Positions 3,497 through 30,105 of a stretch of 64,000 nucleotides of DNA are shown piece after piece. This stretch comes from Roseivirga misakiensis. Lineage in GTDB: Bacteria; Bacteroidota; Bacteroidia; Cytophagales; Cyclobacteriaceae. The DNA lies in the NCBI RefSeq assembly GCF_001747105.1, contig NZ_MDGQ01000005.1, positions 1,736,001 to 1,800,000 on the forward strand, written 5' to 3'. The position numbers and the translations under genes were made by a program. A model generated the notes under the pieces. That model was not told the DNA's origin. It was given only the letters and a program-made list of their open reading frames with translations, and searched no databases. Within the stretch, counting starts at the first letter, position 1, and each line of letters starts with the position of its first letter.

Positions 3497-3500
3497 TTTA

Positions 3501-5897
3501 CTATTCGTTTCTCAGTGAATTAACTGGGTTTGAATTGGCTGTTTTAAATGACTGAATGGAAATGGTAATGACTGCTATACCCAATGTGATGATCATAGGA
3601 ATAAGGAATAACATGACACCAATATTGATTTGATCGGCAAAATTTTCCAGCCAACTTTCCACTAAATAGTAAGCGATCGGGATAGTGAATACAAATGACA
3701 AGAGCACAAGCTTGGAGAAGCCTGAATTAAGCAAAAACACCAATTGTGACACTGAAGCGCCTAAAACTTTACGTACACCGATCTCTTTTTCACGCTGCTG
3801 AGCTGCTAAATGGGCTAAACCAAATAGACCTAGACAAGAGATGGCAATAGCTAATAAGGTAGAATAAGTAATTACTTGTTTCCATCGTTTCTCCTCCGCA
3901 AAAGTGTTTTTGTTTTCCTCTTCGATAAAAGCAAAACTCAAAGGCTGATAAGGATCTACTTTTCTCCATGCCTCCTCAACTGCTGATTTGATGTTTGACA
4001 AGTAATCAGGATTATACTTAATCGTAAGGTTTTGATAGTCATTATTTAATCCCGGCGAAAAGAATACCATCGGCATGACATTATTCTTCGCGGATGCATA
4101 TTTGTAATCTGGTATAACCCCGACGATTCGGGCGCGATCGGTTCCTCCGCCATCTCCAACAATCTGGCCTATTGCTTCATTCAGGTCGACATCGATTTCT
4201 TCCAAAAACCTTTCGTTTACCAAGACATTCTGCAATGTATCTTGCGTTCTACCGTAGTCATCGCCCGTATCTTTCAACCTTCGGCCTGCTAAAAGTGGAA
4301 CTTCAATCATGTCAAAATATGCGTCTTCGGCACTAGATGTTAAGGAAAAGAATTTATTACCAGCCAGGTCAAATTCAGAGCCGCTTCCATAACCCTTTGT
4401 CAATGCCATTTGCTCAATTTGAGGGTTTGACATCAATTCGTTCTTTAACAATTTGCCATTCTCGCCATTACCATTTAACGAGACTCTCACTTGATTTTTA
4501 TCGTTGTAGCCTAAATCGACTGTGAGCATATGTTTGATCTGGAGATTCATGGCAATTGTTCCAACTACCAGTATACCAGCCATAGTAAATTGCAGCAGAA
4601 CAAGTCCTTTGGAAACGTATCGTTTGCCTGCCAACTTGGCCTTACCATTGAGACTTGAAATGATAGGGAACCTTGAAATGGCAAATGACGGATAAGCTCC
4701 TGCCAGCAAGGCCGTAAAAATGACAAGCAAAAAGCATGAACCGATGAGTGTTGCATCACTCATTACGTTTCCAGCAAATTCTTTGTTGACCAAATTGCCA
4801 AATCCGTTCAGGAAGAATTCAGCCATAATGAGGCCCAATACAAAGGAGATAATAGACACATATACTGCTTCGCTTAAAAACTGAAAAGCGAGTTGTTTCT
4901 TTAGTGCACCGAGCACTTTTCTCACCCCGATTTCTTTGGCCCTTGGTAATGACCTAGCCACTGTGAGGTTTGCAAAATTGATACACGCCAAAACCAGTAT
5001 AACAATGGCAATGAGTGACAGTATATAGGAAGAATTTGGATCGTTGGCCGCTTTTATACCAGCGGACCCACTGTTAAACTCTTTACTTAAATGAATATCA
5101 GTGAAAGGTTGGAGCCCATTGACCACACTTCTCGCAAAGGCCTCATCTTCTCCTGGGTTAAGGCGTTCGCGGACTTCTTTGATTTTTTCGGCTACGGCTA
5201 CAGGGTCTGCCCCTGCTCTTAATTGTAGAATTGAAGTTGAGCCGATGCTTCCCCATGGTCGGGTAACAGGTCCTTGAAGTGCCTCATGCTTCTTCCAAGG
5301 GAATACAAACTCTAAGCGTAGCGATGAATTTGTAGGTATATCATTAATAACTGCATCAATAATGTATTTTTCTAACTGTCCTTGAAGTCTAATCGTCAAT
5401 TCCTCTCCCGCGACATCTACTCGACCAAAATACTTCTCCGCGTTTTCCTTGGTGATAACTACACGATTTAGTTCTTCTAAAACGCCATCTAGCGAACCAG
5501 ACAACACCTCGAAATCAAACATTTCAAAGACGCCTTGGTCACTAAAAACTACTCCAAACTGGCGAATAAAGTCTTCGCCTTTACGGACAATCGCAGCTGT
5601 GCCAGAGAACCTTGTGAAATTCTCAATCTCAGGAATCCGTTCGGCGAACTCCTTAGCTTCAATTTCACTAGTGGCTCCCATTTTCATGGTACTTCCACCA
5701 AACTCTAATTCAGAAGTGAGTCTGTATAATACATCTGATTTTGAATGATACTGATCAAATGTGACCTCATCTTTGACATACATGAGAATGAGCAAACAAC
5801 AGGCGATGCCCAATGCTAATCCTGTAATGTTAATGAAAGAATAGCCTTTGTGTCTGGCAAGATTTCTAAATGCGATTTTGACGTAGTTCTTTATCAT
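3501..5897 (-). CDS. Double-FtsX ABC transporter permease (permease 3)
   Basis: A 798-residue permease with two FtsX blocks separated by periplasmic domains. It opens MIKNYVKIAFRNLARHKGYS and carries RAKEIGVRKVLGALKKQ in the first FtsX block, KEIGVRKVLGASVSQ in the second, and a C-terminal NPVNSLRNE. The membrane helices after each motif are clear hydrophobic runs. It sits 4 bases upstream of permease 2 and 8 bases downstream of permease 4, so co-transcription is likely. It has no ATPase domain. The sequence differs clearly from its neighbours in the periplasmic domains while the FtsX motifs are conserved, the pattern expected if the array members share a mechanism but recognise different partners; that last point is inference. 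Confidence 0.93.
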   Translation of the reverse strand: MIKNYVKIAFRNLARHKGYSFINITGLALGIACCLLILMYVKDEVTFDQYHSKSDVLYRLTSELEFGGSTMKMGATSEIEAKEFAERIPEIENFTRFSGTAAIVRKGEDFIRQFGVVFSDQGVFEMFDFEVLSGSLDGVLEELNRVVITKENAEKYFGRVDVAGEELTIRLQGQLEKYIIDAVINDIPTNSSLRLEFVFPWKKHEALQGPVTRPWGSIGSTSILQLRAGADPVAVAEKIKEVRERLNPGEDEAFARSVVNGLQPFTDIHLSKEFNSGSAGIKAANDPNSSYILSLIAIVILVLACINFANLTVARSLPRAKEIGVRKVLGALKKQLAFQFLSEAVYVSIISFVLGLIMAEFFLNGFGNLVNKEFAGNVMSDATLIGSCFLLVIFTALLAGAYPSFAISRFPIISSLNGKAKLAGKRYVSKGLVLLQFTMAGILVVGTIAMNLQIKHMLTVDLGYNDKNQVRVSLNGNGENGKLLKNELMSNPQIEQMALTKGYGSGSEFDLAGNKFFSLTSSAEDAYFDMIEVPLLAGRRLKDTGDDYGRTQDTLQNVLVNERFLEEIDVDLNEAIGQIVGDGGGTDRARIVGVIPDYKYASAKNNVMPMVFFSPGLNNDYQNLTIKYNPDYLSNIKSAVEEAWRKVDPYQPLSFAFIEEENKNTFAEEKRWKQVITYSTLLAIAISCLGLFGLAHLAAQQREKEIGVRKVLGASVSQLVFLLNSGFSKLVLLSFVFTIPIAYYLVESWLENFADQINIGVMLFLIPMIITLGIAVITISIQSFKTANSNPVNSLRNE

Positions 5898-5905
5898 ATC
5901 TTCAA

Positions 5906-8266
5906 CTATTCGTTTCTTAATACATCCACAGGGTTCTTTTGAGCGTTTTTGTGACCATTCAATGAGAGCACAAAAACAGCTAGGAATAGCACAACAGCGC
6001 TAGAGGTAATGAAATAGGTAGTTAGACTTTCAACTCGGTAAGGGAAACCTTCCAACCAGCCAGATATCAGCTCATAGGTTACAGGAATAGATAGCAGCAG
6101 AGATATGAGCACTAAGCCTAGAAACCGACCATTAGATAATTTCAACAGGCTTAAATAATCGGCACCCAACACTTTTCTTATGCTCAATTCGCGCTCTCTA
6201 AATTGACTTTCAAAAGTGGCAATGGTAAACAATCCAAGAAAGGCGATGATTACTAGCATGGCCGTTAAACCATTGAAAATAGTCAGTAATGTTGCCTCCC
6301 TTTTAAATGCGTTTGCATAAAAAGTGGCCAATTCTGTCGTTTTAAGTGGCTTTTGAACGTTCTGATCTTTCCACAGCTGTTCCAGTTGTGCCATAACAAC
6401 ATCCTTCTCACCTGCCCTAAACTTGAATTGTAAGTTTCTTATTTCCTCTTTATTGATCGTTAAAATCACCGGGGAAATTTCAGATTTCACACTAGCTACA
6501 TGAAAATCCTTAACCACTCCGATAATCTCAAATCGATCAATCTTCTTACCGATAATGTCTTCTATCCCTACCGACTTATAGGCGGTTTCATTGATAATTG
6601 CTGCATTTTCGAGTCTAGATTCTGGAATATCGGCAAAGGTTTGACCCTTAATCAATTCCACTTCCATTACTTCATTAAAATTCAGATCAACTGGACTCGT
6701 ACGGAACAATGCCTGCGTTTCTTCCCCATCTTTGATCACTGGGAGAAACATTCCCATCATACTACTTGGCAATGAAGACCCTGTGACTGCCGAAATTTGA
6801 GGTATTCGCTCCAATTCAGACTTCAACTGTTCATAGCGCCGTCCAAATCCATTTTCATAGAGACCAATGCTAAAGACATTCTCAGTATTATAGCCTATAT
6901 CTTTGTTAATCATATATTTAGCCTGTCCTCTTATGATAAATGCACTTGAAAGTAGACCAGCACAAATCACAAATTGAAAACCCACAATAAGTTTTCTAAC
7001 CACCGATCGGTTCACATTAGGCAGGCTGCCTTTGAGTAAGCTAGATATATTAAATGAGGAGGAAACTAGTGCAGGATAAATGCCCGATATTAAAACGACT
7101 AGTGCTAAAGCTCCGAATGGTAACAAGAGTAGCTCAGGCTGTTTTATAAAGGAAAGATCTAATCTTTTACCTAGAATTTGATTTACATCTCCTAGACTCA
7201 ATTCCACGGCAATGATGGCAATAACCAAGGATATAATAGCAACTAGCGCTGTTTCGCCAATGGATAGTAAGATCAGCTTGGCCTTGCTAGCACCAAGTAC
7301 CTTTCTGATAGCCATATCTTTGGTTTGGGCAAAAGAACCAGCAATTTTTAGGTTCACGTAATTAAAACAAGCAACCAGAAAGAGTAATGCACCAACAATT
7401 GAAAAAATGTAGATGTACTTTCGATCACCTCCGAAAACGGGTCTCTCCCGTCCGTTAGCTCGACCATCTAGGTAGAGGTCACTAAATAAGTCGAACCCTA
7501 CAATCATAGGTTCATCGAAAGGTTGATTTCGTTGGTAAATTTCGTCTAGATCTTTCGTCAGGTCTTCAATTGAATAATTATCACGCATGAGAACGTAATT
7601 TTTACCCCATCCTAGCTGCCAGTTACCTTTATAACTTGAATAGGGATGCGCATTTAAATCTGCATAAATGATCAAATCAAAACGCAGGTGTGAATTGCTT
7701 GGAATTGGCTTCAATACACCAGATACACTATAAGTACCTTTATCTTTGAGGGTAATAAACTCACCGATTGGGTTTTCTTTACCAAAATGCTTTTCAGCCA
7801 ACTCAGCCGATATGATTATATCTTTCGGATCGTTCAGCGCATTTTTCTCGTCACCAATCTTTAGGTCAAAATCGAAAACATCGAAAAATGTAGGCTCAGC
7901 TGCATATATTTTTCGAGAGTCGAAAGTCTCCCCCTTTACTTCATAAGTCTTCAAAAAAGAGAAACTCTCAGTCACTACTTCTGCCAAGTTGACAACAGTC
8001 TCTACTCCTGGAATATCATTCAACAGGGCGTTATGTACTGCGAATGGCGGGCTTGTATAACTAAACCCATTGGCTACTTCTCTACCAAGCGATGGCAGGT
8101 AAATTCTATCTGAATTTTCATGCCATTTATCGTGTGTCAGTTCGTCCCTAACATAAAGCGAGGAAACTAGGAAACAGAACATCCCAAGCGATAGGCCAAG
8201 AACATTCACAAAGGTGAATAACCTATTGCGTTTGAGGGATTTAACTCCGTTGGTAAAGAACTTCAT
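5906..8266 (-). CDS. Double-FtsX ABC transporter permease (permease 4)
   Basis: A 786-residue permease of the same architecture: first helix near residues 19-42 (GLSLGMFCFLVSSLYV), periplasmic domain, FtsX block with KDMAIRKVLGASKAK, second periplasmic domain, FtsX block with RELSIRKVLGADYLS, and a C-terminal NPVDVLRNE. It is visibly closer to permease 5 than to the others: both begin with a KSL/SIKR stretch and share the DELTHD(K/N)WH motif after the first helix, as expected for a recent tandem duplication. Gaps are 8 bases to permease 3 and 12 bases to permease 5. No ATPase domain and no frame disruption are present. Substrate unknown. Confidence 0.93.
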   Translation of the reverse strand: MKFFTNGVKSLKRNRLFTFVNVLGLSLGMFCFLVSSLYVRDELTHDKWHENSDRIYLPSLGREVANGFSYTSPPFAVHNALLNDIPGVETVVNLAEVVTESFSFLKTYEVKGETFDSRKIYAAEPTFFDVFDFDLKIGDEKNALNDPKDIIISAELAEKHFGKENPIGEFITLKDKGTYSVSGVLKPIPSNSHLRFDLIIYADLNAHPYSSYKGNWQLGWGKNYVLMRDNYSIEDLTKDLDEIYQRNQPFDEPMIVGFDLFSDLYLDGRANGRERPVFGGDRKYIYIFSIVGALLFLVACFNYVNLKIAGSFAQTKDMAIRKVLGASKAKLILLSIGETALVAIISLVIAIIAVELSLGDVNQILGKRLDLSFIKQPELLLLPFGALALVVLISGIYPALVSSSFNISSLLKGSLPNVNRSVVRKLIVGFQFVICAGLLSSAFIIRGQAKYMINKDIGYNTENVFSIGLYENGFGRRYEQLKSELERIPQISAVTGSSLPSSMMGMFLPVIKDGEETQALFRTSPVDLNFNEVMEVELIKGQTFADIPESRLENAAIINETAYKSVGIEDIIGKKIDRFEIIGVVKDFHVASVKSEISPVILTINKEEIRNLQFKFRAGEKDVVMAQLEQLWKDQNVQKPLKTTELATFYANAFKREATLLTIFNGLTAMLVIIAFLGLFTIATFESQFRERELSIRKVLGADYLSLLKLSNGRFLGLVLISLLLSIPVTYELISGWLEGFPYRVESLTTYFITSSAVVLFLAVFVLSLNGHKNAQKNPVDVLRNE

Positions 8267-8278
8267 ATAGTTTTACTT

Positions 8279-10648
8279 TTAATCGTTTCTTAAAATGTTT
8301 GCTGGGTTCTTTTGAGTATTGAAATAACTGTAGGTTCCTAGAATAATCGCAGCAAGTATGATGACTGCACCAATGGAAACCAGAAAATACGGCACCAAAT
8401 TTTCTACCCGATATGGGAATGAAGCCAACCAGTTAGTGATAAGTGCATATGATACTGGAATAGAAACCAACACGGCTATCAAAATCAACCAGCTAAACTT
8501 TTTATTCAACACCCTGATTAGGCTGAAATAACTAGCGCCTAACACCTTACGAATGCTCATTTCCTTTTCCCTGAGTTGGTTTTCGAAGGTTGCCAAGGCA
8601 AATAAGCCTAGAAAAGCCACCATCATGAGAAGTCCAGTCAATAGATCAAATATGTTTACAAGGCTCTCTTCTTTGCCGTAAGAATCTGCAAAGTAGTCCT
8701 CTACCTCCTCCAATTCAATGGTCTGATCAGGAACAAGGCCTTTCAATGCGCTTTGGACTTGGGCTGTCACTGCGGCACGATTGCCTTCTTTAAATTTGAA
8801 CTGAAGATTTCTGATTTGCCCCATCTGATTATCGATCAGGATTGGACCAATCTTGCTTTTTCCAGAACGGTAATGAAAATCTTTAACAACTCCCGTGACC
8901 ACTTTCCCCTTCATAAGCTCTCTACCGATAGGGTCGCCCTCCCAGCCCAATTGCTTTAGAGCGGTTTCGTTGATAATTGAAGCGGCTTTTAATTCAGACT
9001 CGGTTAATCCATCAAAACCACTACCATGGATAAATTCTAGACCGAAAATCTCATTAAAATCGACATCGGCGGCTCCATAAAAGCAATTCAGGTTTACCTT
9101 TTCATCTCCATTTTCAACCTCCATCATGATTACGGAATTGAGGTTTGGAAGCGGAGAACCCGTAACCTTTTCTATTTGCGGTATTCTTTCTAACTCATTT
9201 CTGGCCTCCTCATACTTCTCGAAAAGTCCGGCACTTGTTAGGTTAAGGCTAAGAATATTTTCCTCGTTATAACCTAAATCCATATTCATCAAGTGCTTGG
9301 CTTGTCCCCTAATGACTAAAGCACTCGATAAGAGTCCAATACAAATTAGAAACTGAAAAACGATTAAGGCCTTTCTAAAAATTGCTTTGGTCGACTTGGG
9401 GTTTCTCCCCCTTAACACAGAAGACAAACTAAATGCTGAGGCTGTAAATGCCGGGTAAAGTCCAGAGATCAGCACGACAAACGCCAAAACGCTTAGCGGT
9501 ATCCAGAGCACCGAAGGTGATCCAATAAAGTCTAAGTCCAATTGTTTCTCTAGAAGCGAGTTAATTGAAGGCAGAGTGACTTCTACAGAAACTAGCGCAA
9601 TAACTAAGGAGAAAAGGGCTAAAAACAACGTTTCCCCCATTTGAAATAACACTAAACGTGTTCTACTAGCTCCAATAATCTTTCTTATGGCCACATCTTT
9701 TGATCGGGCAAATGATCGAGCTGTCGTTAAGTTGATATAGTTAAAACAAGCGACCAGTAGTAGTAAGCCACCAATTAAGGAGAAAATGTAGATGTATTTC
9801 ATTTGGCCGCCAAACATGGTACTGCTTGAACTTCTCATCGTGGCGCCGTTCATATATAAATCAGAGAAATTGTTGTAAATGTATTTCCCTAAAAGTTCTG
9901 AACTATCTCTAGCTGCCAACACACGTTTTGTATCTTCTAATAAGTTATCTGGGGAATAATCGGCACGTGCTAGAATGTAATTGAGTCCAGATCCAGTACG
10001 CCAATCGTTATAATTAAAATCGTAAGGAGCAGCATTTGGGTTGATAAGGGCTAAGAATTCAAATTGTAAATGAGAGTTTGAAGGAATTGCTTCAAGGACT
10101 CCACTAACCCGAAAAGTACCTTTGTCCGACACCTCCACAAACTCTCCGATTGGGTTTTGATTCGGAAAATGCTTTTGTGCCATTTCGGCGGATAAAATGA
10201 TCTCGTCCGTCGACGTTAAAACAGTTTCGGTATTTCCATATTTCAGGTCGAAATCGAATACTGAAAACAAAGAAGGCTGGGTGTAAAAGAAGGCTTTCGA
10301 TTTAAAATCCTCCTCTTTGATCGTATAATTAATAGTCTGTGCTAAACTGATATTAACCGCGTCAATAATTCCCGGCAAATCCTGCTTCATAGCATCGCCC
10401 AATTGAACGGGAGGAAACAGGTTAAAGGATTCACCTGTTCCACCGAAACTCATCTCAATCTTAGGCATGTAGATGTTATCTCGGTTCTGATGCCAGTTAT
10501 CGTGTGTTAATTCATCCTTGACATAAAGCGTCGTGATCAAGAAGCAGTACATACCAAGGGTCAACCCGATGATATTGACTGCAGCAAAGAACCTTTCCCT
10601 TTTGATGCTTTTAATTCCTGATTTATAAAATCGACCTAACCTGTTCAT
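8279..10648 (-). CDS. Double-FtsX ABC transporter permease (permease 5), first gene of its operon
   Basis: A 789-residue double-FtsX permease, closest in the window to permease 4. FtsX motifs are KDVAIRKIIGASRTR and KEMSIRKVLGASYFS, and the tail is NPANILRND. It is the promoter-proximal gene of the unit running down to permease 1. The 153 bases upstream hold a sigma-54-like promoter (10686-10703) only 38 bases before the ATG and a palindromic element further up, so transcription is probably controlled by the NtrC-type regulator encoded at 15843. Family knowledge places it in the inner membrane with two large periplasmic domains; the ATPase partner and substrate are not identifiable. Confidence 0.93.
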   Translation of the reverse strand: MNRLGRFYKSGIKSIKRERFFAAVNIIGLTLGMYCFLITTLYVKDELTHDNWHQNRDNIYMPKIEMSFGGTGESFNLFPPVQLGDAMKQDLPGIIDAVNISLAQTINYTIKEEDFKSKAFFYTQPSLFSVFDFDLKYGNTETVLTSTDEIILSAEMAQKHFPNQNPIGEFVEVSDKGTFRVSGVLEAIPSNSHLQFEFLALINPNAAPYDFNYNDWRTGSGLNYILARADYSPDNLLEDTKRVLAARDSSELLGKYIYNNFSDLYMNGATMRSSSSTMFGGQMKYIYIFSLIGGLLLLVACFNYINLTTARSFARSKDVAIRKIIGASRTRLVLFQMGETLFLALFSLVIALVSVEVTLPSINSLLEKQLDLDFIGSPSVLWIPLSVLAFVVLISGLYPAFTASAFSLSSVLRGRNPKSTKAIFRKALIVFQFLICIGLLSSALVIRGQAKHLMNMDLGYNEENILSLNLTSAGLFEKYEEARNELERIPQIEKVTGSPLPNLNSVIMMEVENGDEKVNLNCFYGAADVDFNEIFGLEFIHGSGFDGLTESELKAASIINETALKQLGWEGDPIGRELMKGKVVTGVVKDFHYRSGKSKIGPILIDNQMGQIRNLQFKFKEGNRAAVTAQVQSALKGLVPDQTIELEEVEDYFADSYGKEESLVNIFDLLTGLLMMVAFLGLFALATFENQLREKEMSIRKVLGASYFSLIRVLNKKFSWLILIAVLVSIPVSYALITNWLASFPYRVENLVPYFLVSIGAVIILAAIILGTYSYFNTQKNPANILRND

Positions 10649-10685
10649 GTTGTTGAGTTTTTCTTTGGGCTAATGCTGATTTTCA

Positions 10686-10703
10686 TTTCAAGCACCATAC
10701 CAA
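10686..10703 (-). promoter_or_regulatory. Sigma-54-like promoter for permease 5-1 operon
   Basis: Read on the minus strand the site is TTGGTATGGTGCTTGAAA. It fits the -24/-12 layout of sigma-54 promoters (TGG, then TTG eleven bases after the start of TGG). The C of the usual -12 GC pair is A, and two positions of the -24 box deviate. A nearly identical 18-mer (one base different) stands before permease 7. The -12 box ends 38 bases before the permease 5 ATG, leaving a short leader. The nearby NtrC-type activator supports the call. Confidence 0.68.
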
Positions 10704-10755
10704 AGTTAAAACCCTATTAATCAGGTGGTTAATAATATAATGATTAGACCATTTA

Positions 10756-10793
10756 TCCGCAGGCGAACTGTTGTGACCGCCAGCGGACGGTAA
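10756..10793. promoter_or_regulatory. Candidate enhancer (UAS) upstream of sigma-54-like promoter
   Basis: The block begins TCCGCAGGCGAACT and continues to ACCGCCAGCGGACGGTAA. The first part recurs as TCCGCAGACGAACT at 15741, and the second part recurs inverted as TTACCGTCCGCTGGCGG at 15755-15771. In both places TCCGCAG starts exactly 70 bases from the left edge of the sigma-54-like promoter. That distance is typical for binding sites of NtrC-family activators. The alternative is a dispersed REP-like palindrome; only a genome-wide count can separate the two. Confidence 0.5.
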
Positions 10794-10801
10794 CCCTTCT
10801 T

Positions 10802-13189
10802 CTATTCAGTTCTCAAGGAATTTATCGGGTTTGTGGTAGCCGATTTATAAGACTGAAAAGCCAGTATTGCCCAAACGATCACCAACAAGAAGATCAGTGG
10901 GGCAATCAGCGTTAAAGTGTTCAAGGAGATATGGAAAGCGAAAGTGGCAAGCCAATCGCTCATTACATAATAAACGACAGGTAAAGTAACCACAGCTACT
11001 AAGATCATTAGTCTAGTTACACTACTATTCAAAATCCAAATGATATGACTTACGCTAGCGCCCAAAATTTTTCTAATACCGATTTCTTTTATCCTCTGCT
11101 CAGCCATGAAAATAGATAGACCAAAAATCCCTAATCCGGCAACAAAAATGGCTAATAGACTAAAAATCGAGAATACATCCGAAAGCTTCTTTTCCTGAGC
11201 GTACTTTTCTGCAAAGTGATCATCCAAAAACTTGAATTCAAATGGGTAATCCTTTGAAAATGATTCAAAGGCGCCTTGAATATGACTAAGTGCAGCTTTC
11301 ACATCACCACCGTTTATTTTGATGTAAACATGGTTAAAGTCTTTTTCACTTACCAACATCGCTGCTGGCGCAATCACATTCTTGGCCGAACCATATAAAA
11401 AGTCATTGACAACTCCTGTAATCGAAGCACCGAATAGCTTTTGATCCAATGGCGAGTCCCACCCAAACTTTTCAACGGCGATCTCATTCACAAACATGGC
11501 AGACTTCCGTTGGCTATCTTCCATTTGATCGAATGGCACGCCAACCTTAACACCGATATCCATTGTTTTAAGGAAGTCCGACTCGACGGTCATGTAGCTG
11601 ATTGTTTGACTTTCCTCAAAGCCCTCTATATCAGCAAATAGGCTCATATTACCATTAAAAACAGAATAAGAAACGCCTGAAGCAGCCATGATTTCAGGGT
11701 TTTTAAGTAGCTGATCCTTAAAGATTGCATAGTTGTCTTTCAAGTTTTTGTCGTGTAATGGCACACCTAAAACTTGATCTTTATCAAAACCTAAGTCTAA
11801 ACTTTGCATGTAATTAAACTGACTGTAAACGATCGTGGTAACACCAATAAGCCCTAGGCAAACAAAGAATTGAAAGCCGACTAGAACCTTTCTAAAAGAC
11901 GCGCCACGGGTTCCTCCAGAAACACTTCCAGACAAGACTTGAATCGGGTTAAACTTTGAGAGGTAAAGCGAAGGATATATACCAGACAGTGCTCCTACAA
12001 TTAGAACAAAGGAAACCAATAAAAAATATGTCTCGATAGCTTCATAGGCTATTCCTAACTCCTTGCCAATAAAGGAATTAAGCGCAGGTAAGGATACTTC
12101 AGTAATACATATGGCTACCAACAATGATATCCCTGTCATAAACATGGACTCAATAAAAAACTGTGCCGCAATTTGAAAACGGTAACCGCCCACTGTTTTC
12201 CGAATACCGACTTCTTTAGCACGTTTAGCATGCCGTGCTGTGGCCATATTCATGTAGTTAATGACTGCCACACCAAGAATAATAAATGCAATGATCAAAT
12301 AAAGCTGTGCATTGGAGGCCTCTCCTTTCCTATCGAAATAGGCCTTGTTTAATTCTGAAAAGTAAACCTCATTAATTGGAACAAGCTTAACTAAATCTGA
12401 AGGTCTATGCGGTCGTATTGCTTCTTGAAGCTTTAAGGCGATTGTCTCTTTTTTGAAGCTCCCTTCTTTCAGTTTAACGTATAGTGGAAACGCTGAAACA
12501 ACACCCCAATCTTGAACTGAGGGTGTTTTACGACCTGACGAACCGATTAGATCGGGATTCATACCCATGGCCTTGTCTGCGTTTTCAAACGAAATCAAGT
12601 AATCGAAATCCAGATGTGAATTGTGTTTTAAGTCTTCGAAAACACCACTGACGATCAATCTTCCAAAATCCACTATTTCCACTTCTTTGTTGACAGCAGC
12701 TTGTACATCCCCAAAGAGCCTGATAGCTTCTTGTTTCGATATCACAAGGTTTTCCTTGGTGCTCAGCGCATCTTCCTTAGAACCCACCAGTAATGGAATT
12801 GAAAAGAAGTCGAAAACCTCAGCATCAGTGTAGTATATTCCGTCCACAGGGTACTTTTCGCCCTGCACAGTTTTGAGCACTTTATCACTCATTCTGCCAA
12901 AGCGAATGGTTTCCTTGATTTCAGGCACCATTTCTTCGAAAAGTGGACCAGTCGGTGCCATGGTCTGCATATAATACTCACTTCGCGTGCTAGAACTATC
13001 CTTTAAATAGACCTGAAATATGCGATCCTTATCGCTGTAGTGCTCATCAAAACTAAATTCGTTTTGAACAAAGAGTGTGAGCATAATAAAACAGGCCATC
13101 CCTACCGAAAGGCCTAAAATATTGATAAGACTATAAGACTTATTCTTCCAAAAGAATCTTAGGGTAGTTTTAGCGTAATTCTTGAGCAT
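10802..13189 (-). CDS. Double-FtsX ABC transporter permease (permease 6)
   Basis: A 795-residue permease if the ATG at 13187-13189 (MLKNYAKTTLRFFWKNKSYS) is used. The frame stays open upstream to 13252, but that longer start would run through a hairpin terminator and adds residues that no other array member has. FtsX motifs are KRAKEVGIRKTVGGYRF and KEIGIRKILGASVSH, and the tail is NPINSLRTE. It resembles permeases 7 and 1. Between it and permease 7 lies a hairpin followed by a T-rich run, so it may depend on read-through from permease 7. Downstream it is separated by 153 bases from permease 5. No ATPase domain. Confidence 0.92.
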   Translation of the reverse strand: MLKNYAKTTLRFFWKNKSYSLINILGLSVGMACFIMLTLFVQNEFSFDEHYSDKDRIFQVYLKDSSSTRSEYYMQTMAPTGPLFEEMVPEIKETIRFGRMSDKVLKTVQGEKYPVDGIYYTDAEVFDFFSIPLLVGSKEDALSTKENLVISKQEAIRLFGDVQAAVNKEVEIVDFGRLIVSGVFEDLKHNSHLDFDYLISFENADKAMGMNPDLIGSSGRKTPSVQDWGVVSAFPLYVKLKEGSFKKETIALKLQEAIRPHRPSDLVKLVPINEVYFSELNKAYFDRKGEASNAQLYLIIAFIILGVAVINYMNMATARHAKRAKEVGIRKTVGGYRFQIAAQFFIESMFMTGISLLVAICITEVSLPALNSFIGKELGIAYEAIETYFLLVSFVLIVGALSGIYPSLYLSKFNPIQVLSGSVSGGTRGASFRKVLVGFQFFVCLGLIGVTTIVYSQFNYMQSLDLGFDKDQVLGVPLHDKNLKDNYAIFKDQLLKNPEIMAASGVSYSVFNGNMSLFADIEGFEESQTISYMTVESDFLKTMDIGVKVGVPFDQMEDSQRKSAMFVNEIAVEKFGWDSPLDQKLFGASITGVVNDFLYGSAKNVIAPAAMLVSEKDFNHVYIKINGGDVKAALSHIQGAFESFSKDYPFEFKFLDDHFAEKYAQEKKLSDVFSIFSLLAIFVAGLGIFGLSIFMAEQRIKEIGIRKILGASVSHIIWILNSSVTRLMILVAVVTLPVVYYVMSDWLATFAFHISLNTLTLIAPLIFLLVIVWAILAFQSYKSATTNPINSLRTE

Positions 13190-13211
13190 GACCTTAGTTT
13201 GTTTTGTTTTT

Positions 13212-13264
13212 AAATTAAAAATAAACCATTCACAGTGTCGCGAAGATGCCACACCTGTGAATGG
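13212..13264 (-). terminator. Intrinsic terminator or attenuator between permeases 7 and 6
   Basis: On the minus strand a perfect 10-base inverted repeat (CCATTCACAG / CTGTGAATGG, 13226-13264), extendable by three pairs after a one-base bulge, is followed directly by TTTATTTTTAATTT. That is a classic Rho-independent layout, lying downstream of permease 7 and only about 36 bases before the permease 6 ATG. No second promoter is evident between hairpin and ATG, so it could set the ratio of the two products. Confidence 0.65.
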
Positions 13265-13286
13265 AGTTTGTGTGTGACTATTAGGA

Positions 13287-15647
13287 CTATTCTGCTCTTA
13301 AAGCATTGACTGGGTTAGCTTTAGCTGATTTGTAGGCCTGGTAGAGTAGTATACTCCATAGTACTGCTAGTAAAGTCAGTAATGGTAGTATAAAATGCAC
13401 CGGACTTAAGTCTATTCTAAAGGCAAAGTCTTCGAGCCAGCCACTTGTGAAATGAAATACCACAGGTATGACCAATAGTGCCACTAGGAGTACTAACACG
13501 GTTATTCCACTATTTAGCAACCAGACAACCTGTCCAATTTTAGCACCTAGCACTTTTCTAATGCCGATCTCTTTCACTCTAGACTCAGCAATGTAAATTG
13601 ATAAACCTAAGATGCCTAAGCCGGCAATAAAGATCGTCAGGACACTAAACAAACCGAAAACCTCTCCCAGCCGTTTCTCATCTTCGTATTTATCCGCAAA
13701 GACATCGTCAAGGAATTGATAGTCAAAAAGATATTCTGAATCGAAACTGACAAGTACCTTTTCTATATCGGCAAGTCCTTTCTTTATATTGTTACTCACT
13801 TTAATGTACAAGTAGCTATTAGCATCGCTGGTTTGCGTAATCACCACAGGCCTAATTTCTTCCTTGGCCGACTGATAGATAAAGTCTTTTACAACGCCAA
13901 CTACTTTATTGTTACCCAAAACAGTTTTACCAAGTGGGTCGTCAATTTTCATTTGTCTCACAAAGGCTTCATTGACCAAAACCGTTTTCTTTCTTTCACT
14001 TTCTGGCAAATCAGAAAATAGCTTTCCATCTGCAATCTTTACTTCGAGCAAATCCATTAAGCCAGATTCGACAATCATCAGAGAAGAATTAACCTTCTCT
14101 TTATCAACAGTAATGTTTAAGTTGACTGTTCCTCCACTTATTGGGCTAACATTTGCGGCTTTAATAAATTCAATATTTGGCGATTTAGCGATTTCGGTCT
14201 TGATACTTTTTACAGATTTCGACAACTGATCGCCTTTCAACTCCACTACCATCACTTGATCAGTAGTAATGCCTAAATCTAAGTTATTCATATACTGATA
14301 TTGTGAGTAGAGGATATAAGTTGCCGACATTAGTGATAAGCAAATGGCAAATTGAACCCCTACGAGCACCTTTCTGAATACACTTTTATCCTTCCCACCG
14401 TTCGATTGGGTGAGACTCTGTTTAGCGCTAAATCTAGAAAGGTAAAAAGCTGGATAAATTCCTGAAATAGTTCCTATAAGCAGTACAGTACCCACTAAAA
14501 AGAAATATGTTTGGATTGAACCAAAGTTAACGTCGATCAATTTGCCTGTGTACTCATTAAAATAAGGCATGGCTATTTCGGCAAATACTACCCCTATGAT
14601 CATTGCAAAAAAGGTGATAGTAATCGACTCCACTAAAAATTGAAATATTAACTGATTTCTGTGTCCGCCGATCGTTTTTCGTACCCCAACTTCTTTGGCT
14701 CTTTTCGAGAATCTGGCAGTAGAAAGGTTCATGTAGTTAACAATGGCAATAAGAAGTAAAACCATGCCAACGCTGATGAACAAATTCAACTCTTTACGAT
14801 CGCCAGCTGATTTAAAGAAGCCCTTATACCCTTCGTAAAGGTAAATATCATCTAATCGCACATATTCGACTTCTTTTTGACCTACATGAGGTTCAAAAAC
14901 CTTTTGAGTCTTTTGTGATAATAGATCAATATCTCTTTCTCCATCTAACATCACAAAAGTTGTAAAGGAACTTAATTCACCCCAATTCATTGGGTCTATA
15001 TCTATGGCAAATGGAGCTCCATAAAAGATTAGATCTTTAACCAAGTCAAAGGATACCAGGGAATTGAATTCCAAATGTGAATTTCCCGGCATATCCTTAT
15101 ACACCCCGATAACTTGAAGTTCATCTAAATCATCTGCTTTTATAGTCTTTCCTATGGCATCATTTACATCGCCATATAAGCGTAATGCTTCTGTTTCGGC
15201 CAAAAGTAGGTCACTTTTATTGAAAGTGTTTCTAGGTGCCTCGCCCGCAATGATTTCTATATCAAACATCTCAAATGCTGACGCATCAGTGAAATACAAA
15301 CCATCAAGTTTGAATGACTTGTCGTCCGTAACTATAGTGAGGTTAGGTCCACCGCCAAATCGTACAAACTTAGATACTTCAGGAACTTCTTCCATAATGG
15401 CTGGCCCCATAGGTGCTTCGGAAGCGTAGCTAAATGGACCGTTTACCAAACTACTATCGGCAAGGTATAATTGATAAATATCATCCTTGTTTGCATGAAA
15501 TTCATCGAAATTCGTTTCGCGATTAACAAAGAGTGCCAAGAGTATAAAACACCCCAACCCTAGCGATAATCCGAAGACGTTGATCAAAGAATATATCTTA
15601 TTACTGCTGAATTGTCTTATTGCGATTCTGAGAAAGTTCGTAAACAT
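13287..15647 (-). CDS. Double-FtsX ABC transporter permease (permease 7), first gene of its unit
   Basis: A 786-residue permease starting at the ATG 15645-15647 (MFTNFLRIAIRQFSSNK). The longer open frame to 15698 runs through the sigma-54-like promoter and is not used as the start. The order is first helix, periplasmic domain, FtsX block with KRAKEVGVRKTIGGHRN, second periplasmic domain, FtsX block with KEIGIRKVLGAKIGQ, and tail NPVNALRAE. It is closest to permeases 6 and 1. It is transcribed divergently from the NtrC-type regulator gene with a 195-base shared control region, so it is the most likely direct target of that regulator. No ATPase domain; substrate unknown. Confidence 0.93.
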   Translation of the reverse strand: MFTNFLRIAIRQFSSNKIYSLINVFGLSLGLGCFILLALFVNRETNFDEFHANKDDIYQLYLADSSLVNGPFSYASEAPMGPAIMEEVPEVSKFVRFGGGPNLTIVTDDKSFKLDGLYFTDASAFEMFDIEIIAGEAPRNTFNKSDLLLAETEALRLYGDVNDAIGKTIKADDLDELQVIGVYKDMPGNSHLEFNSLVSFDLVKDLIFYGAPFAIDIDPMNWGELSSFTTFVMLDGERDIDLLSQKTQKVFEPHVGQKEVEYVRLDDIYLYEGYKGFFKSAGDRKELNLFISVGMVLLLIAIVNYMNLSTARFSKRAKEVGVRKTIGGHRNQLIFQFLVESITITFFAMIIGVVFAEIAMPYFNEYTGKLIDVNFGSIQTYFFLVGTVLLIGTISGIYPAFYLSRFSAKQSLTQSNGGKDKSVFRKVLVGVQFAICLSLMSATYILYSQYQYMNNLDLGITTDQVMVVELKGDQLSKSVKSIKTEIAKSPNIEFIKAANVSPISGGTVNLNITVDKEKVNSSLMIVESGLMDLLEVKIADGKLFSDLPESERKKTVLVNEAFVRQMKIDDPLGKTVLGNNKVVGVVKDFIYQSAKEEIRPVVITQTSDANSYLYIKVSNNIKKGLADIEKVLVSFDSEYLFDYQFLDDVFADKYEDEKRLGEVFGLFSVLTIFIAGLGILGLSIYIAESRVKEIGIRKVLGAKIGQVVWLLNSGITVLVLLVALLVIPVVFHFTSGWLEDFAFRIDLSPVHFILPLLTLLAVLWSILLYQAYKSAKANPVNALRAE

Positions 15648-15670
15648 ATTTTTAAGATTTGACAAATCCT

Positions 15671-15688
15671 TTTCAAGCACCGTACCAA
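15671..15688 (-). promoter_or_regulatory. Sigma-54-like promoter for permease 7
   Basis: The minus-strand sequence TTGGTACGGTGCTTGAAA fits the sigma-54 -24/-12 pattern: TGG, AC and G of the -24 box, then TTG at the proper spacing, with A instead of C in the -12 GC pair. It lies 24 bases before the permease 7 ATG and differs by one base from the site before permease 5. The adjacent 13-mer TTAACCACCTGAT (15691-15703) occurs inverted near the other promoter at 10720-10732. Confidence 0.7.
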
Positions 15689-15740
15689 TTTTAACCACCT
15701 GATATACAGTGTTTTAAAATCATTCAATATACTTGCGCCA

Positions 15741-15842: not shown

Positions 15843-17219
15843 ATGAACACAGGGCGCATTTTAGTAGTAGATGATAACGAGGATTTGCTCAAAGCCGCAA
15901 GGCTCTTCTTAAAACGACACTTTGGACAAATTGACTTGGAGAAAGATCCCACACTACTTCCCGATTTACTGAAAAATGAGAGTTACGATGTCATCTTATT
16001 AGACATGAACTTTACACAGGACGTAAACTCAGGTCAAGAGGGATTTCACTGGTTGGATAAAATACTCGAAATAGATCCTTCTGCGGTTGTCGTTCTAATT
16101 ACGGCATTTGGATCTGTAGATATGGCTGTAAGAGCCATCAAAGCTGGTGCTTCTGATTTCGTAATGAAACCCTGGGAAAATGAAAAACTATTGGCCACGC
16201 TCAATTCAGCCCTTCAATTAAAATCATCTAAAACCCAAATTCAGCAACTCAAAGATCAACAGGAGATTCTAAAAGCAGACCTCGACGAGAAATTCAAGGA
16301 CATTATTGGTCAATCTCCCAATATGATTCAAGTTTTTGATACGATTGACCGCGTGGCCGAAACGGATGCCAATGTTCTCGTATTGGGGGAAAATGGTACA
16401 GGAAAAGAGTTGATCGCCCGTGCCTTACATAGAAATTCTAAGCGTGCCGATAATCCTTTCATTAGTGTAGACTTGGGTGCCATTTCAGAAAGTTTATTTG
16501 AATCGGAGTTGTTTGGGCATGTAAAAGGATCTTTCACCGATGCTAAAACCGATCGGCCTGGTAGATTTGAAATTGCGAATGGAGGAACACTTTTCTTGGA
16601 CGAAATCGGAAACCTTACCCTCCCACTTCAAGCCAAGCTACTAACAGCCATTCAAAACAAAAGAATTAGCCGTGTCGGCTCAAATCGAATCATCGAAGTA
16701 GATATTAGACTGATTTGCGCCACTAATATGCCGCTGTACGACATGGTCCAGAATAGTGAATTCAGGCAGGATTTATTGTACAGGATTAATACTATTGAGC
16801 TGAGACTGCCGGCACTTCGTGAACGTGTTGAAGACATTCCTATACTTGCCGAGCATTATCTTAAACAGTACGCGAAGAAGTACAATAAGGACATCTATAA
16901 GTTCAGCGAAGCGGCTATAAAACGCCTAGAAAAGTACCAATGGCCAGGTAATGTCCGTGAGTTGCAACATGCGGTTGAGCGCGCTGTAATTATGAGTCGA
17001 GACAATGTGCTTCAACCTGAGGACTTCTTTTTCAATACCCCTCAACAACCGAAGGATAATAGCGATATTAGTCTAGAGCAATATAATTTGGAGGATGTAG
17101 AAAGAATCTTGATCAGAAAGGTTTTAGCTAAACATAATGGAAATGTTACGCATGCTGCTCAGGAATTGGGATTAACCAGATCATCGTTATACAGAAGATT
17201 AGAAAAATATGGGCTTTAA
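15843..17219 (+). CDS. Sigma-54-dependent two-component response regulator (NtrC family)
   Basis: A 458-residue cytoplasmic activator of RNA polymerase with sigma-54. The receiver domain spans about 1-125 with acidic D10/D11 and phospho-acceptor D54 (ILLDMNF). The AAA+ domain spans about 150-390 with Walker A GENGTGKE (183-189 region) and Walker B GGTLFLDEIGN (about 247-257). The sigma-54 contact loop reads GSFTDA (229-234) where the family consensus is GAFTGA. A Fis-type helix-turn-helix ends the protein (NVTHAAQELGLTRSSLYRRL). Its stop overlaps the kinase start by 11 bases, so the two form one unit. It stands divergently to the permease array, whose two units carry sigma-54-like promoters, and is their likely regulator; that link is inferred from position and sites. 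Confidence 0.95.
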   Translation: MNTGRILVVDDNEDLLKAARLFLKRHFGQIDLEKDPTLLPDLLKNESYDVILLDMNFTQDVNSGQEGFHWLDKILEIDPSAVVVLITAFGSVDMAVRAIKAGASDFVMKPWENEKLLATLNSALQLKSSKTQIQQLKDQQEILKADLDEKFKDIIGQSPNMIQVFDTIDRVAETDANVLVLGENGTGKELIARALHRNSKRADNPFISVDLGAISESLFESELFGHVKGSFTDAKTDRPGRFEIANGGTLFLDEIGNLTLPLQAKLLTAIQNKRISRVGSNRIIEVDIRLICATNMPLYDMVQNSEFRQDLLYRINTIELRLPALRERVEDIPILAEHYLKQYAKKYNKDIYKFSEAAIKRLEKYQWPGNVRELQHAVERAVIMSRDNVLQPEDFFFNTPQQPKDNSDISLEQYNLEDVERILIRKVLAKHNGNVTHAAQELGLTRSSLYRRLEKYGL

Positions 17220-25822: not shown

Positions 25823-26208
25823 AAAGTAAAAGAGGAATAAACGACCAATTAGACTTCGATCCATCTGAAGATAATCACTTGTACGAGGTTCTTTTCCAAC
25901 AAATTGAACAAGAAGAGGATATTTCCATCAACCCCAAATTCTCTGCTACCATCCTTGAACAACTCAAACGAAAGCGTAAAAAGGAGGCCCTTAGGGAGAA
26001 TATCTACTTTGGGTTAGCGATTGCTGGCGTTTTTGCTTTTGGGTTTACAGTACTACAAGTGATCTCTTCCTTTGGCGGAAATTCTAATACCTTTTTACCG
26101 AAAATAATCTTGCCTGCTACTGGCCTAGTTTCACTAATCGTAATTTTTCAATTAGTTGACCATAAGCTCTTAAAGAGAAAAAGGTTTAAAAGACACCTGG
26201 GTATTTAA
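25819..26208 (+). CDS. Putative membrane anti-sigma factor
   Basis: A 129-residue protein with a charged N-terminal region (about 1-58) that ends in a basic stretch KRKRKKEALREN, then two membrane segments (about 63-83 and 92-112) and a basic C-terminal tail. Its start codon overlaps the sigma-factor stop (ATGA). No classical zinc anti-sigma motif (HxxxCxxC) is visible, so the anti-sigma call rests on position and layout only. It overlaps the convergent oxygenase gene by 4 bases. Confidence 0.55.
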   Translation: MKSKRGINDQLDFDPSEDNHLYEVLFQQIEQEEDISINPKFSATILEQLKRKRKKEALRENIYFGLAIAGVFAFGFTVLQVISSFGGNSNTFLPKIILPATGLVSLIVIFQLVDHKLLKRKRFKRHLGI

Positions 26209-27233
26209 AGCTTTGTTTCTTTGAACCGCGTATAAGCCGCCGCATAAGAGTCTTGGGTATTGAAGAAATAATTTCTGAAACCAAGGAATAACTGATAAGG
26301 CTTAAAGACGGCCCTATCGAAGTCATTTATTTCCAGACCTATCATATTAGATATATAGTTTCCGATCAAAAAGTTCATAAAGGTTTTGACCTTACCCTCT
26401 AACGGCGAGTTTATCGTAGCGAATTCATAATACTTCAAAAGAGACATAGTCAGGGTTTTACCCGCTTCTGAATATCCGAATTGTCGCTGTCTAATTTTGC
26501 GTTCTAAAACCGCCGCCTCTCTGTTATTTTCGGGTAGTAAAAGCGGGTCTAAACCGAGTAATTCGCCTATTTTATTCCAATAATTAATATAACCGAAAGC
26601 GCTCTCAGCTGTCATCAGTTTACCGAGCTTACGTAATCCTCTGATTGTTAGCAGGGAAAAGGACAAATTTGTGCCTGCCATATCTTCTTGATTCACTGGT
26701 GCACCAAACTTCTTATTATCCCAAGTTTTGTCTTTGCTTACATACCATCTAGTGGCGGCGTGCATTAACCTTACCTTAAGAATACTCATTAAGGCCTTTC
26801 CTTCAGGCTTAAAAGCATTCTTGTGTGTAACATCAAAAACAAATTCTGCGGTATCGTTCAGTCGTTGTGCCGGGTTTTCAAGGATTCTATTTGACCTGAC
26901 GAGTACTTCTGCCCCATTTTTAGCGGCATAACAGTACGGCAAAGACATGAATCCAAGCAGTAGCATAATATCAGAGGCGAATTCATCAAAGAAAGCCTGC
27001 CCTTCTGCCAATACGCCTTCATCCAATTGATCGATTTGCTTTCGCATAGACGTTAAAAGATCAACAAGGGATTGATCTGCATTGGATGAGAGTTCATCTG
27101 TATTGTTCACTAGCCCTTGCAGCTGCTCTTGCAATAGTGCTTTCTTTTGAGGAAAGTATTGTTGGATGACTTTGTCGGCTAACTCATCTTGCTTAAAACG
27201 TAATGAGTCCAATATATCTTCTGAGTATTTCAT
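26205..27233 (-). CDS. Oxygenase MpaB-family / rubber oxygenase-like protein
   Basis: A 342-residue, mostly helical protein without a signal peptide. The central segment KVRLMHAATRWYV, followed by GAPVNQEDMAGTNLSFSLLTIRGLRKLG, matches the MpaB/latex-clearing-protein family (formerly DUF2236), heme-b enzymes that cleave or hydroxylate hydrophobic chains. The His in LMHAATR is a candidate heme ligand. The natural substrate of the bacterial cytoplasmic members is generally unknown. It is convergent with the putative anti-sigma gene (4-base overlap) and appears monocistronic. The 237 bases upstream are AT-rich, with no feature I can support. Confidence 0.75.
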   Translation of the reverse strand: MKYSEDILDSLRFKQDELADKVIQQYFPQKKALLQEQLQGLVNNTDELSSNADQSLVDLLTSMRKQIDQLDEGVLAEGQAFFDEFASDIMLLLGFMSLPYCYAAKNGAEVLVRSNRILENPAQRLNDTAEFVFDVTHKNAFKPEGKALMSILKVRLMHAATRWYVSKDKTWDNKKFGAPVNQEDMAGTNLSFSLLTIRGLRKLGKLMTAESAFGYINYWNKIGELLGLDPLLLPENNREAAVLERKIRQRQFGYSEAGKTLTMSLLKYYEFATINSPLEGKVKTFMNFLIGNYISNMIGLEINDFDRAVFKPYQLFLGFRNYFFNTQDSYAAAYTRFKETKL

Positions 27234-28480: not shown

Positions 28481-29536
28481 ATGTTCAAAACCTACACATT
28501 TCCAAGTGTATTTGAAGGAAACAACACAGATCTAAGGAATGTCTCTCCTGATCTAATCAACGGTCTAAAATTGTATCATAACGGCGATGGTTACGTTGTT
28601 GGAAACCTTGCCTTGACAGAAGGAGTTTCTCCTCACAGAAATATCAACAGTGCTCCTGACGAGCTAGATTATAACTTATTACTAAAATCAGGAATGTTGG
28701 TGGCCAACCAAAAATTGGGTAACCCATTGACAATTTCTACTGGTTTTCCTTTTTCCACTTTTCAATTATACAAAGAGACTGCCGCTAACTTGATCAATGC
28801 TCAGCATGTAGTAGAGTATGATGCAGCAACTTATGGAGGTGGCACGAGAAAAAATGTACAAATCGAAATTGATCACGTACAGATTATACCAGAAGTTATC
28901 AGTTGTGCTATCGCTTTAAGGAAAGGGCAGCATCAAGCGAATGGTAACTTTTTCGTGATTTCACTGGGTTATGGTACACTAGAGGGGCTATTGAGCACAG
29001 AAGGTGGTATTGTCCAAAGAACATCCCTTTCAACGTACGGTTTGCGATACGCTGTTAATTTGTTAGAGAAAGAACTAGCAAAGACTTACTACTTGGAGCT
29101 TAAAACTGAGCATCAAATTGATGCAGCTTTCCAAAAAGGCGTGATTTTCTTGAATAGAAAGCGAATTGATATCACAGAAATGCGAAATAAAGTCTTGAGA
29201 CAGTATTACGAAGATGTGATTTCACCAGCGATGAGAAAAGCATTTAATGACAATGACTTTACGATATCTCACGATATGTTCCTTGCCGGGGGTGGTGCTA
29301 TGTACCCACAGCTGGTAGACTGTTTCAAAACTGAATTTCAGGATATTTTGGAATTAGAAGTTGCACACGAACCTCAATCGTTAGCGAGCCGTGGTTATTG
29401 CATCAACTCAGCTCAGCTCAATGGCGGTGTTAAGAGTAGTGCAGTTGGTTTGGATATCGGAAACGCGACTACAATTGTATCGATTTTCGATGATCATAAT
29501 GGAAGCACTGAATCATCTATTCCATCGGCATACTAA
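28481..29536 (+). CDS. Actin-like ATPase (ParM/Alp type) with apparently circularly permuted phosphate-1 motif
   Basis: A 351-residue protein of the actin/ParM superfamily. In ParM order from residue 1: FPSVFEG and VSPDLINGL (5-29) correspond to the segment that normally follows the phosphate-1 hairpin. TISTGFPFSTFQLY (84-97) and IIPEVISCAIAL (135-146) match the ParM region with catalytic E148 (here E138). FVISLGYGTLEG (158-169) is phosphate-2, but its usual Asp is S161. FLAGGGAMYPQL (267-278) is the adenosine motif. After it, AVGLDIGNATTIVSIFDD (321-338) looks exactly like a phosphate-1 motif, which family members have at the N-terminus, and the protein ends IPSAY, echoing the N-terminal FPSVF. 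An in-frame stop about 14 codons upstream excludes a missing N-terminal copy. It overlaps the bactofilin gene by one base. Confidence 0.8.
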   Translation: MFKTYTFPSVFEGNNTDLRNVSPDLINGLKLYHNGDGYVVGNLALTEGVSPHRNINSAPDELDYNLLLKSGMLVANQKLGNPLTISTGFPFSTFQLYKETAANLINAQHVVEYDAATYGGGTRKNVQIEIDHVQIIPEVISCAIALRKGQHQANGNFFVISLGYGTLEGLLSTEGGIVQRTSLSTYGLRYAVNLLEKELAKTYYLELKTEHQIDAAFQKGVIFLNRKRIDITEMRNKVLRQYYEDVISPAMRKAFNDNDFTISHDMFLAGGGAMYPQLVDCFKTEFQDILELEVAHEPQSLASRGYCINSAQLNGGVKSSAVGLDIGNATTIVSIFDDHNGSTESSIPSAY

Positions 29537-30051
29537 TGAGCAAAAGAGATCAATCATCGGCTAATAACCCTTCTACCTACATTACGCAGGTTAGACACGG
29601 CTCTGTAATTTCGGGCAATATGAAATCCGAACATAGTATCCGCGTTGATGGCTATGTTACCGGTGACTTGGTGTCCGATGAGCGCATAATCATAGGAAAC
29701 CATGGTGAAATTGGCGGCAACTTAAGTGGCAACGAGATCACCATTGAAGGTTATGTGAATGGTGACGTTATTGCAAAGGGGCTTTTGCATTTATCGCAAT
29801 CGGCGCGCGTATATGGAAAAATATATGCCAAGCATATTTCTGTAGAAAATGGCGCCGAAATGAATGGGAAGATCAATGTTGGCCAAAAGATCGAAATGCC
29901 AGAACTCAATAGTAGCTCTCCGTCGAGGTCTAACAGACAAACTCAAACACCATCTCCTACTCCAACACAACGAAAAACAAATGTCTTTATCCCATCTAAA
30001 AACGTAGATGACGAAGGCAAAACAGATAATTATGGAAGTGTAGCCTGGTAA
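29536..30051 (+). CDS. Bactofilin (polymer-forming cytoskeletal protein)
   Basis: A 171-residue bactofilin. The DUF583 beta-helix core spans about 20-115, with the typical repeats GNMKSEHSIRVDGYVTGDL, NHGEIGGNLSGNEITIEGYV, and GDVIAKGLLHLSQSARVYGKI. The C-terminal tail (about 120-171) is rich in Ser, Pro, Thr and Gln and is probably disordered. Bactofilins self-assemble without nucleotide into membrane-associated filaments that guide cell-shape or wall enzymes. The ATG shares its A with the stop of the actin-like gene (TAATG), so the two are translationally coupled, suggesting one cytoskeletal module. A terminator overlaps its stop codon. Confidence 0.93.
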   Translation: MSKRDQSSANNPSTYITQVRHGSVISGNMKSEHSIRVDGYVTGDLVSDERIIIGNHGEIGGNLSGNEITIEGYVNGDVIAKGLLHLSQSARVYGKIYAKHISVENGAEMNGKINVGQKIEMPELNSSSPSRSNRQTQTPSPTPTQRKTNVFIPSKNVDDEGKTDNYGSVAW

Positions 30052-30097: not shown

Positions 30098-30105
30098 TAT
30101 CTTTG
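30098..30105 (+). promoter_or_regulatory. Bacteroidota-type -7 box before tyrS
   Basis: TATCTTTG fits the TAnnTTTG -7 consensus of the Bacteroidota housekeeping sigma factor and lies 21 bases before the tyrS ATG. The matching -33 TTTG is not clear; TTTTA about 20 bases upstream is the best candidate. Confidence 0.5.

Follow-up and report, generated by a model that had tools for sequence, protein, structure and literature searches.

Can a protein of the actin fold keep its nucleotide-binding cleft when the phosphate-1 hairpin, normally the first element of the chain, is carried at the opposite end? This question arises from a 64,000-nucleotide stretch of the genome of Roseivirga misakiensis (contig NZ_MDGQ01000005.1, positions 1,736,001 to 1,800,000), hereafter the window, in which all coordinates below are given. 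At 28481-29536 of the forward strand (stop included), an ATG-initiated open reading frame of 351 codons encodes an actin-like protein that, judging from the reading frame, its homologues and rotation tests, appears to begin directly after that hairpin and to end with it. We consider it probable (roughly 0.85) that this is a chromosomal actin-fold protein of the ParM/StbA type that is circularly permuted and belongs to an actin-bactofilin module, not to a plasmid segregation system.

The 351-amino-acid chain starts with MFKTYTFPSVFEG, in which FPSVFE (residues 7-12, 28499-28516) corresponds, in profile and ALP_N alignments, to the strand which in ParM/StbA proteins comes after the phosphate-1 hairpin. 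There is an in-frame TGA 39 nucleotides 5' of the ATG, and no DxG is encoded by the 13 codons in between. The subsequent landmarks, all on the forward strand, are E138 (28892-28894), the candidate catalytic glutamate, aligned with the glutamine of the canonical IPQP; SLGYGTLE (residues 161-168, 28961-28984), the apparent phosphate-2 loop, aligned to DIGFGTSD with serine in place of the aspartate; and the adenosine motif AGGG (residues 269-272, 29285-29296), within AGGGAMYP. In an alignment of family members (A1), residues 311-320 (29411-29440) form a linker, variable across the family, that leads from the old C-terminus to the apparently transplanted phosphate-1 hairpin AVGLDIGNATTIVSI (residues 321-335, 29441-29485); the hairpin, AVGLDIGNATTIVSIF, makes up the C-terminal end of the protein. 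The original prediction, made from the letters of this DNA, had claimed the start at FPSVF directly after a missing hairpin, the upstream stop, E138, AGGGAMYP and the C-terminal phosphate-1 motif, and each of these is present as described. The source genome (4.4 Mb) holds a single copy of the gene. Separate genes elsewhere in it encode MreB, FtsA-like and DnaK-like proteins, as identified from their length and their N-terminal motif; these share the actin/Hsp70 fold with the permuted protein, but the motif is N-terminal in them and C-terminal here. A match to MreB-like_C lies just under the cut-off, and a PDB search with the single window protein gave no credible match.

Homologues with the same architecture were read at 65 of 67 loci, the window's own included; some of these represent a single gene retrieved twice, so that there are 59 distinct proteins, with identities down to about 42% from 7 numbered families of the phylum. 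The two others were set aside: L067 was not confirmed by the hidden Markov model of the family, and L047 is a fragment at a contig edge with a fit to the N-terminus alone. A pattern scan that reaches close relatives only yielded the 16 closest public loci, 13 of them labelled Roseivirga, with 90% identity at best. Whole-genome searches were made in overlapping samples at three ranks: for the order, 9 of 291 genomes had matches; for the family, 27 of 196 (one being the unconfirmed L067); and for the phylum, 24 of 395, which belong to 11 of 170 genera and the 7 numbered families. A profile search with E values up to 1e-5 in the 395 phylum genomes recovered the same 24 genomes and the same loci as the search with a single protein, so the family is sharply bounded within this sample. 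Two genomes of one genus, G432 and G476 (g213; loci L032, L033, L048 and L049), encode two diverged permuted actins each.

The order of elements is uniform. At all 65 loci, the first conserved element, (F/Y/I/L)PS(V/I), stands 5-13 residues after the chosen start, the first glycine of GxDxGN lies 15-32 residues before the C-terminus, and the reading frame is closed by an upstream stop. An N-terminal phosphate-1 hairpin was seen at none of these loci, compared with 14 of 14 canonical relatives; thus, two of the three outcomes that the original prediction had named as refuting it did not occur, since no homologue read contains the normal N-terminal motif and the C-terminal one is conserved. In the tail, G323, D325, G327, N328 and T331 are invariant among the 59 distinct sequences, as are P8, S9, E12, E138 and G270-272 in the remainder of the protein. 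The predicted loss of the phosphate-2 aspartate also holds for the whole family: position 161 is serine in 56 sequences, glycine in 2 and asparagine in 1, and never aspartate. Among 16 Roseivirga-group sequences (L019, with an extra codon, was left out), the ratio of nonsynonymous to synonymous polymorphism (pN/pS) is 0.10 for residues 321-335, 0.04 for residues 1-20, 0.13 for the body, 0.13 for the linker and 0.32 for residues 336-351. On these ratios, tail residues 321-335 are under purifying selection. One component of the original prediction did not survive, namely, the suggestion that FPSVF and the terminal IPSAY are halves of one element split by the permutation: the IPSAY ending occurs in the Roseivirga group only, varies there (GPSDY, NPSDY, IPAEY) and falls in the less constrained segment with a pN/pS of 0.32, so we rejected this suggestion. 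A hidden N-terminal hairpin or a frameshift was likewise rejected, given the upstream stops at all 65 loci.

The permutation itself is supported by the effect of moving the tail to the front of the chain. We compared the family with a canonical profile of 14 ParM/StbA proteins from phages and plasmids. In the natural order, family positions 3-311 aligned to canonical positions 21-343 with a score of 163.9; among the 24 rotations listed, cuts at 310, 315, 318, 320 and 321 were the best, with scores of 179.5-179.6 and coverage of canonical positions of about 3-342, and these cuts coincide with the tail boundary. None of 200 tails with shuffled columns reached 179.5 (mean 163.7, maximum 170.4), and hhalign matched the rotated family to the ParM/StbA profile with an E value of 1.2e-24. 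The Pfam model ALP_N, present in 17 of the 22 members of alignment A1, behaved in the same manner in the four homologues that were tested. In the natural order, the match began at profile position 16-17, and with the tail in front it began at position 1 in all four, with gains of 12.8, 7.0, 8.2 and 8.7 bits. The scores with the real tail in front were 47.3, 59.6, 47.9 and 45.7 bits, compared with 36.0 and 35.4, 53.2, 40.6 and 35.8 bits for five shuffled versions, which shifted the score by only +1.5 to -1.2 bits relative to the natural order and left the start at 15-17. For phrog_691, three members, including the window protein, were rotated; their matches then reached back to profile position 6-7 and scored 2.5, 7.7 and 4.4 bits more than in the natural order, and 1.6, 5.9 and 2.8 bits more than with one shuffled tail each. 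Against a DnaK profile of nine sequences, the best local match in the natural order placed residues 319-341 on DnaK 2-24 (E=0.0018), and the score after rotation exceeded all 60 shuffles; in a HMMER comparison with BiP, the segments aligned out of order, query residues 316-338 to 18-40, 124-179 to 180-236 and 251-288 to 335-374. The circular permutation claimed in the original prediction is therefore supported by ALP_N, phrog_691 and the ParM/StbA profile alike.

When the body, minus the hairpin, was analysed with FastTree, all 59 permuted proteins fell into one clade beside the 14 ParM/StbA proteins, and this joint group was separate from MreB, FtsA and DnaK (printed support values of 0.76 and, for the joint clade, 1.0; these labels may shift on rerooting). 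A single permutation event is the simplest reading of these sequences. No canonical, unpermuted sister was found within the phylum by the profile search of the 395 genomes or among the phrog_691 matches listed; the latter (148 genomes), permuted members aside, begin no earlier than profile position 139 and are, as we take it from their typical lengths, DnaK, FtsA or MreB, except that the DnaK and FtsA loci used in the rotation tests were picked by motif. The relationship to the ParM/StbA family (ALP; PF17989, phrog_691) thus comprises a near full-length profile match of the rotated family, a common adenosine motif and the sister position in the tree, and all 59 permuted proteins possess the DxGxxxT hairpin, the adenosine GG and the catalytic Glu/Gln position characteristic of that family. 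By contrast with ParM/StbA proteins, the hairpin is C-terminal, serine typically replaces the phosphate-2 aspartate and the gene downstream is usually for a bactofilin instead of ParR.

In the window, this downstream gene (29536-30051, forward strand) encodes a bactofilin of 171 amino acids (PF04519, E=3e-23, 82.4 bits where the cut-off is 27.9); its ATG and the actin stop share one base (TAATG), and a tyrosyl-tRNA synthetase gene begins after it, at 30103. We examined 31 regions, comprising the window and 30 others, which were picked from 50 further places so as to cover a range of genera. In 25 of these regions the actin gene is followed on its own strand by a bactofilin gene, in three cases after an intervening TPR-type gene; a bactofilin gene also follows at 16 of 16 Roseivirga-group loci, some of whose genomes are shared with the 31 regions. 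The model used for these counts was built from 18 of the neighbours themselves, and Pfam independently confirms the bactofilins of the window, of G581, G355 and G398 and of both G432 copies. Of 98 genomes of the order, 77 have a bactofilin, and the source genome alone has two above the cut-off; the nine genomes of the order found to carry a permuted actin include none of the other 97. Ten actin-bearing genomes were compared: six have no bactofilin beside the actin and one elsewhere, three with the cassette have two each, and G432, with two cassettes, has three bactofilin genes, a further match being a second stretch in one reading frame. The source genome, counted apart from these ten, has two. 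A further bactofilin is therefore encoded elsewhere in all five cassette genomes checked, so the adjacent one is additional. In G432, each of the paralogous actins has a bactofilin of its own, the actins being 60% identical and the bactofilins about 32% over 151 residues.

The polymer of bactofilins is nucleotide-independent, and M23 peptidase genes accompany bactofilins elsewhere. Three related regions (L074, L079 and L080) have the same pairing, in the order M23-type gene, permuted actin, TPR-type gene and bactofilin, the M23 and TPR names coming from Pfam in L074 and from BLAST clustering with L074 in the other two; the difference is that the bactofilin here accompanies an actin fold. In L090, a gene of the M23 cluster lies beyond the bactofilin on the opposite strand. 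Directly upstream of the permuted actin of L072, which has no adjacent bactofilin, is a gene for a pentapeptide-repeat protein of 1239 amino acids (2808-6527 of that region, forward strand).

Several observations weigh against this interpretation. ALP_N does not match the window protein itself, so this test rests on the homologues; the bit gains with phrog_691 are modest; and the BiP segments taken singly are not significant (i-Evalues above 1). Rotation was uninformative against one MreB sequence, where 44 of 60 shuffles reached the observed score, and against 18 FtsA sequences the score rose slightly (26.4 compared with 25.5 or less in 60 shuffles), with the tail falling on FtsA 206-293 and not on the FtsA N-terminus. 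The phosphate-1 and phosphate-2 loops resemble each other, and this likeness may be the cause of the match inside FtsA. AlphaFold, run with 17 closely related sequences, gave no confident model (mean confidence score, pLDDT, of 39). As the phosphate-2 aspartate is missing, hydrolysis of ATP is doubtful. Finally, an adjacent bactofilin is absent from 6 of the 31 regions (four of genus g201, one of genus g166 and one of genus g5); in five of these six, Pfam found no ParR family in the one or two neighbours scanned, one neighbour having no match at all. The four g201 regions (L071, L081, L095 and L096) come from genomes with one bactofilin elsewhere, so the actin can exist without a dedicated partner.

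If the protein is indeed permuted, a linker of about 10 residues would connect the old C-terminus with the phosphate-1 hairpin, and the new N- and C-termini would lie between the second and third strands of the fold. In actin folds, the canonical N- and C-termini are close together in subdomain IA. The C-terminal hairpin would fold back into the nucleotide cleft of its own molecule, in that subdomain, and supply the phosphate-1 aspartate D325, forming with E138 an otherwise ordinary cleft. With D325 provided in cis, ATP binding and polymerisation would be kept; hydrolysis would probably be slow or altered because serine replaces the phosphate-2 aspartate, and this could yield rather stable filaments or a switch. 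Because the operon is recurrent, a two-polymer cytoskeletal module with a dedicated bactofilin may be proposed, in which the actin would polymerise, or at least bind ATP, and together with the bactofilin organise cell shape or the envelope; in genomes that lack the linked bactofilin, the actin would have to do without it or use the other bactofilin of the genome. A further step, which we offer tentatively and at clearly less than even odds, is a hybrid cytoskeleton in which the nucleotide-controlled permuted actin steers or assembles its dedicated second bactofilin, the hairpin serving as a C-terminal nucleotide latch that is possibly donated between subunits.

The alternative that fares best is compatible with the permutation. 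The protein could be a non-polymerising pseudo-actin, an ATP-bound adaptor or scaffold for the bactofilin that neither forms filaments nor hydrolyses ATP. The absence of the phosphate-2 aspartate from all 59 sequences and the frequent neighbourhood of a polymer that needs no nucleotide speak for this possibility, but the invariant E138, phosphate-1 aspartate and adenosine GGG suggest that nucleotide handling has been kept, and on balance we find it somewhat unlikely. Strand donation, whereby the C-terminal hairpin would complete the cleft of a neighbouring subunit so that polymerisation builds the nucleotide site, would fit with a tail under purifying selection and a variable, often glycine-rich linker, but closure in cis is easy because this linker is short and the canonical termini are both located in subdomain IA; donation is improbable.

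More improbable still is a chromosomal remnant of a plasmid partition system that continues to segregate DNA in the manner of plasmid ParM. The nearest canonical relatives found are indeed phage and plasmid ParM/StbA proteins. However, among 72,556 plasmid and 50,697 phage records none matches the window protein, and a homologue, L040, has no plasmid match and only three phage matches, to distant proteins and over 53-65% of its length, both of the two examined being in the canonical order. Three scans of IMG/VR gave 24, 5 and 26 pattern matches, none of which was confirmed as a relative, and the downstream gene usually encodes a bactofilin, not a ParR-like protein. A mobile origin, for which the window protein gave no plasmid or phage match and IMG/VR no confirmed relative, was rejected; PADLOC gave no match. 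Chance resemblance or an annotation error, with an overlooked N-terminal hairpin and a tail that is merely phosphate-1-like, could draw on the alignment of the tail to the middle of FtsA but is nearly negligible given the stops at all 65 loci, the invariant tail, the failure of all 200 shuffles and the ALP_N match that reaches position 1 with the real tail only.

For the permuted actin with its bactofilin, the closest functional parallel may be FcmB of filamentous cyanobacteria, which PMC12645912 describes as a ParM-derived chromosomal actin serving cell shape, with a partner, FcmC, annotated as ParR. Both would be ParM-derived chromosomal actins, and an envelope or cell-shape role here would parallel the role of FcmB in cell shape, but the partner is a bactofilin in the present case. 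The FcmB model (NCBIfam NF052678) matches weakly (E=0.0013, 17.7 bits against a cut-off of 300), and the main text of PMC12645912 contains neither "permut" nor "Bacteroid".

Among the other genes of the window, six consecutive paralogues of 786-816 amino acids on the reverse strand (1130-15698) are 26-46% identical in the pairs listed, and both of the two scanned are MacB/FtsX-type permeases; the array is adjoined by a sigma-54 response regulator gene (15843-17219). The reverse strand also encodes a protein with an MpaB/rubber-oxygenase-like catalytic domain (26205-27233; PF09995, E=4.4e-14).

To our knowledge, no actin-fold polymer with a chain that starts after the phosphate-1 hairpin has been described. 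In the open-licence literature searched, we found no description of a circularly permuted actin-fold filament protein, which is not proof that none exists, nor, in the titles and abstracts searched, of an actin-bactofilin gene pair; in the portions of PMC1079889, PMC6403190 and PMC6669507 that were retrieved, terms for permutation concern other things. The domains are known, and it is the changed order of the chain, together with a usually dedicated bactofilin, that appears to be new within the ParM-type actin family. A permutation maintained by purifying selection in several families of the phylum would show that the fold survives a cut beside the nucleotide site, and would offer a natural experiment on the regions of the chain that polymerisation and nucleotide control require. 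Moreover, the recurrent actin-bactofilin pair suggests that two cytoskeletal systems, usually studied separately, are directly linked.
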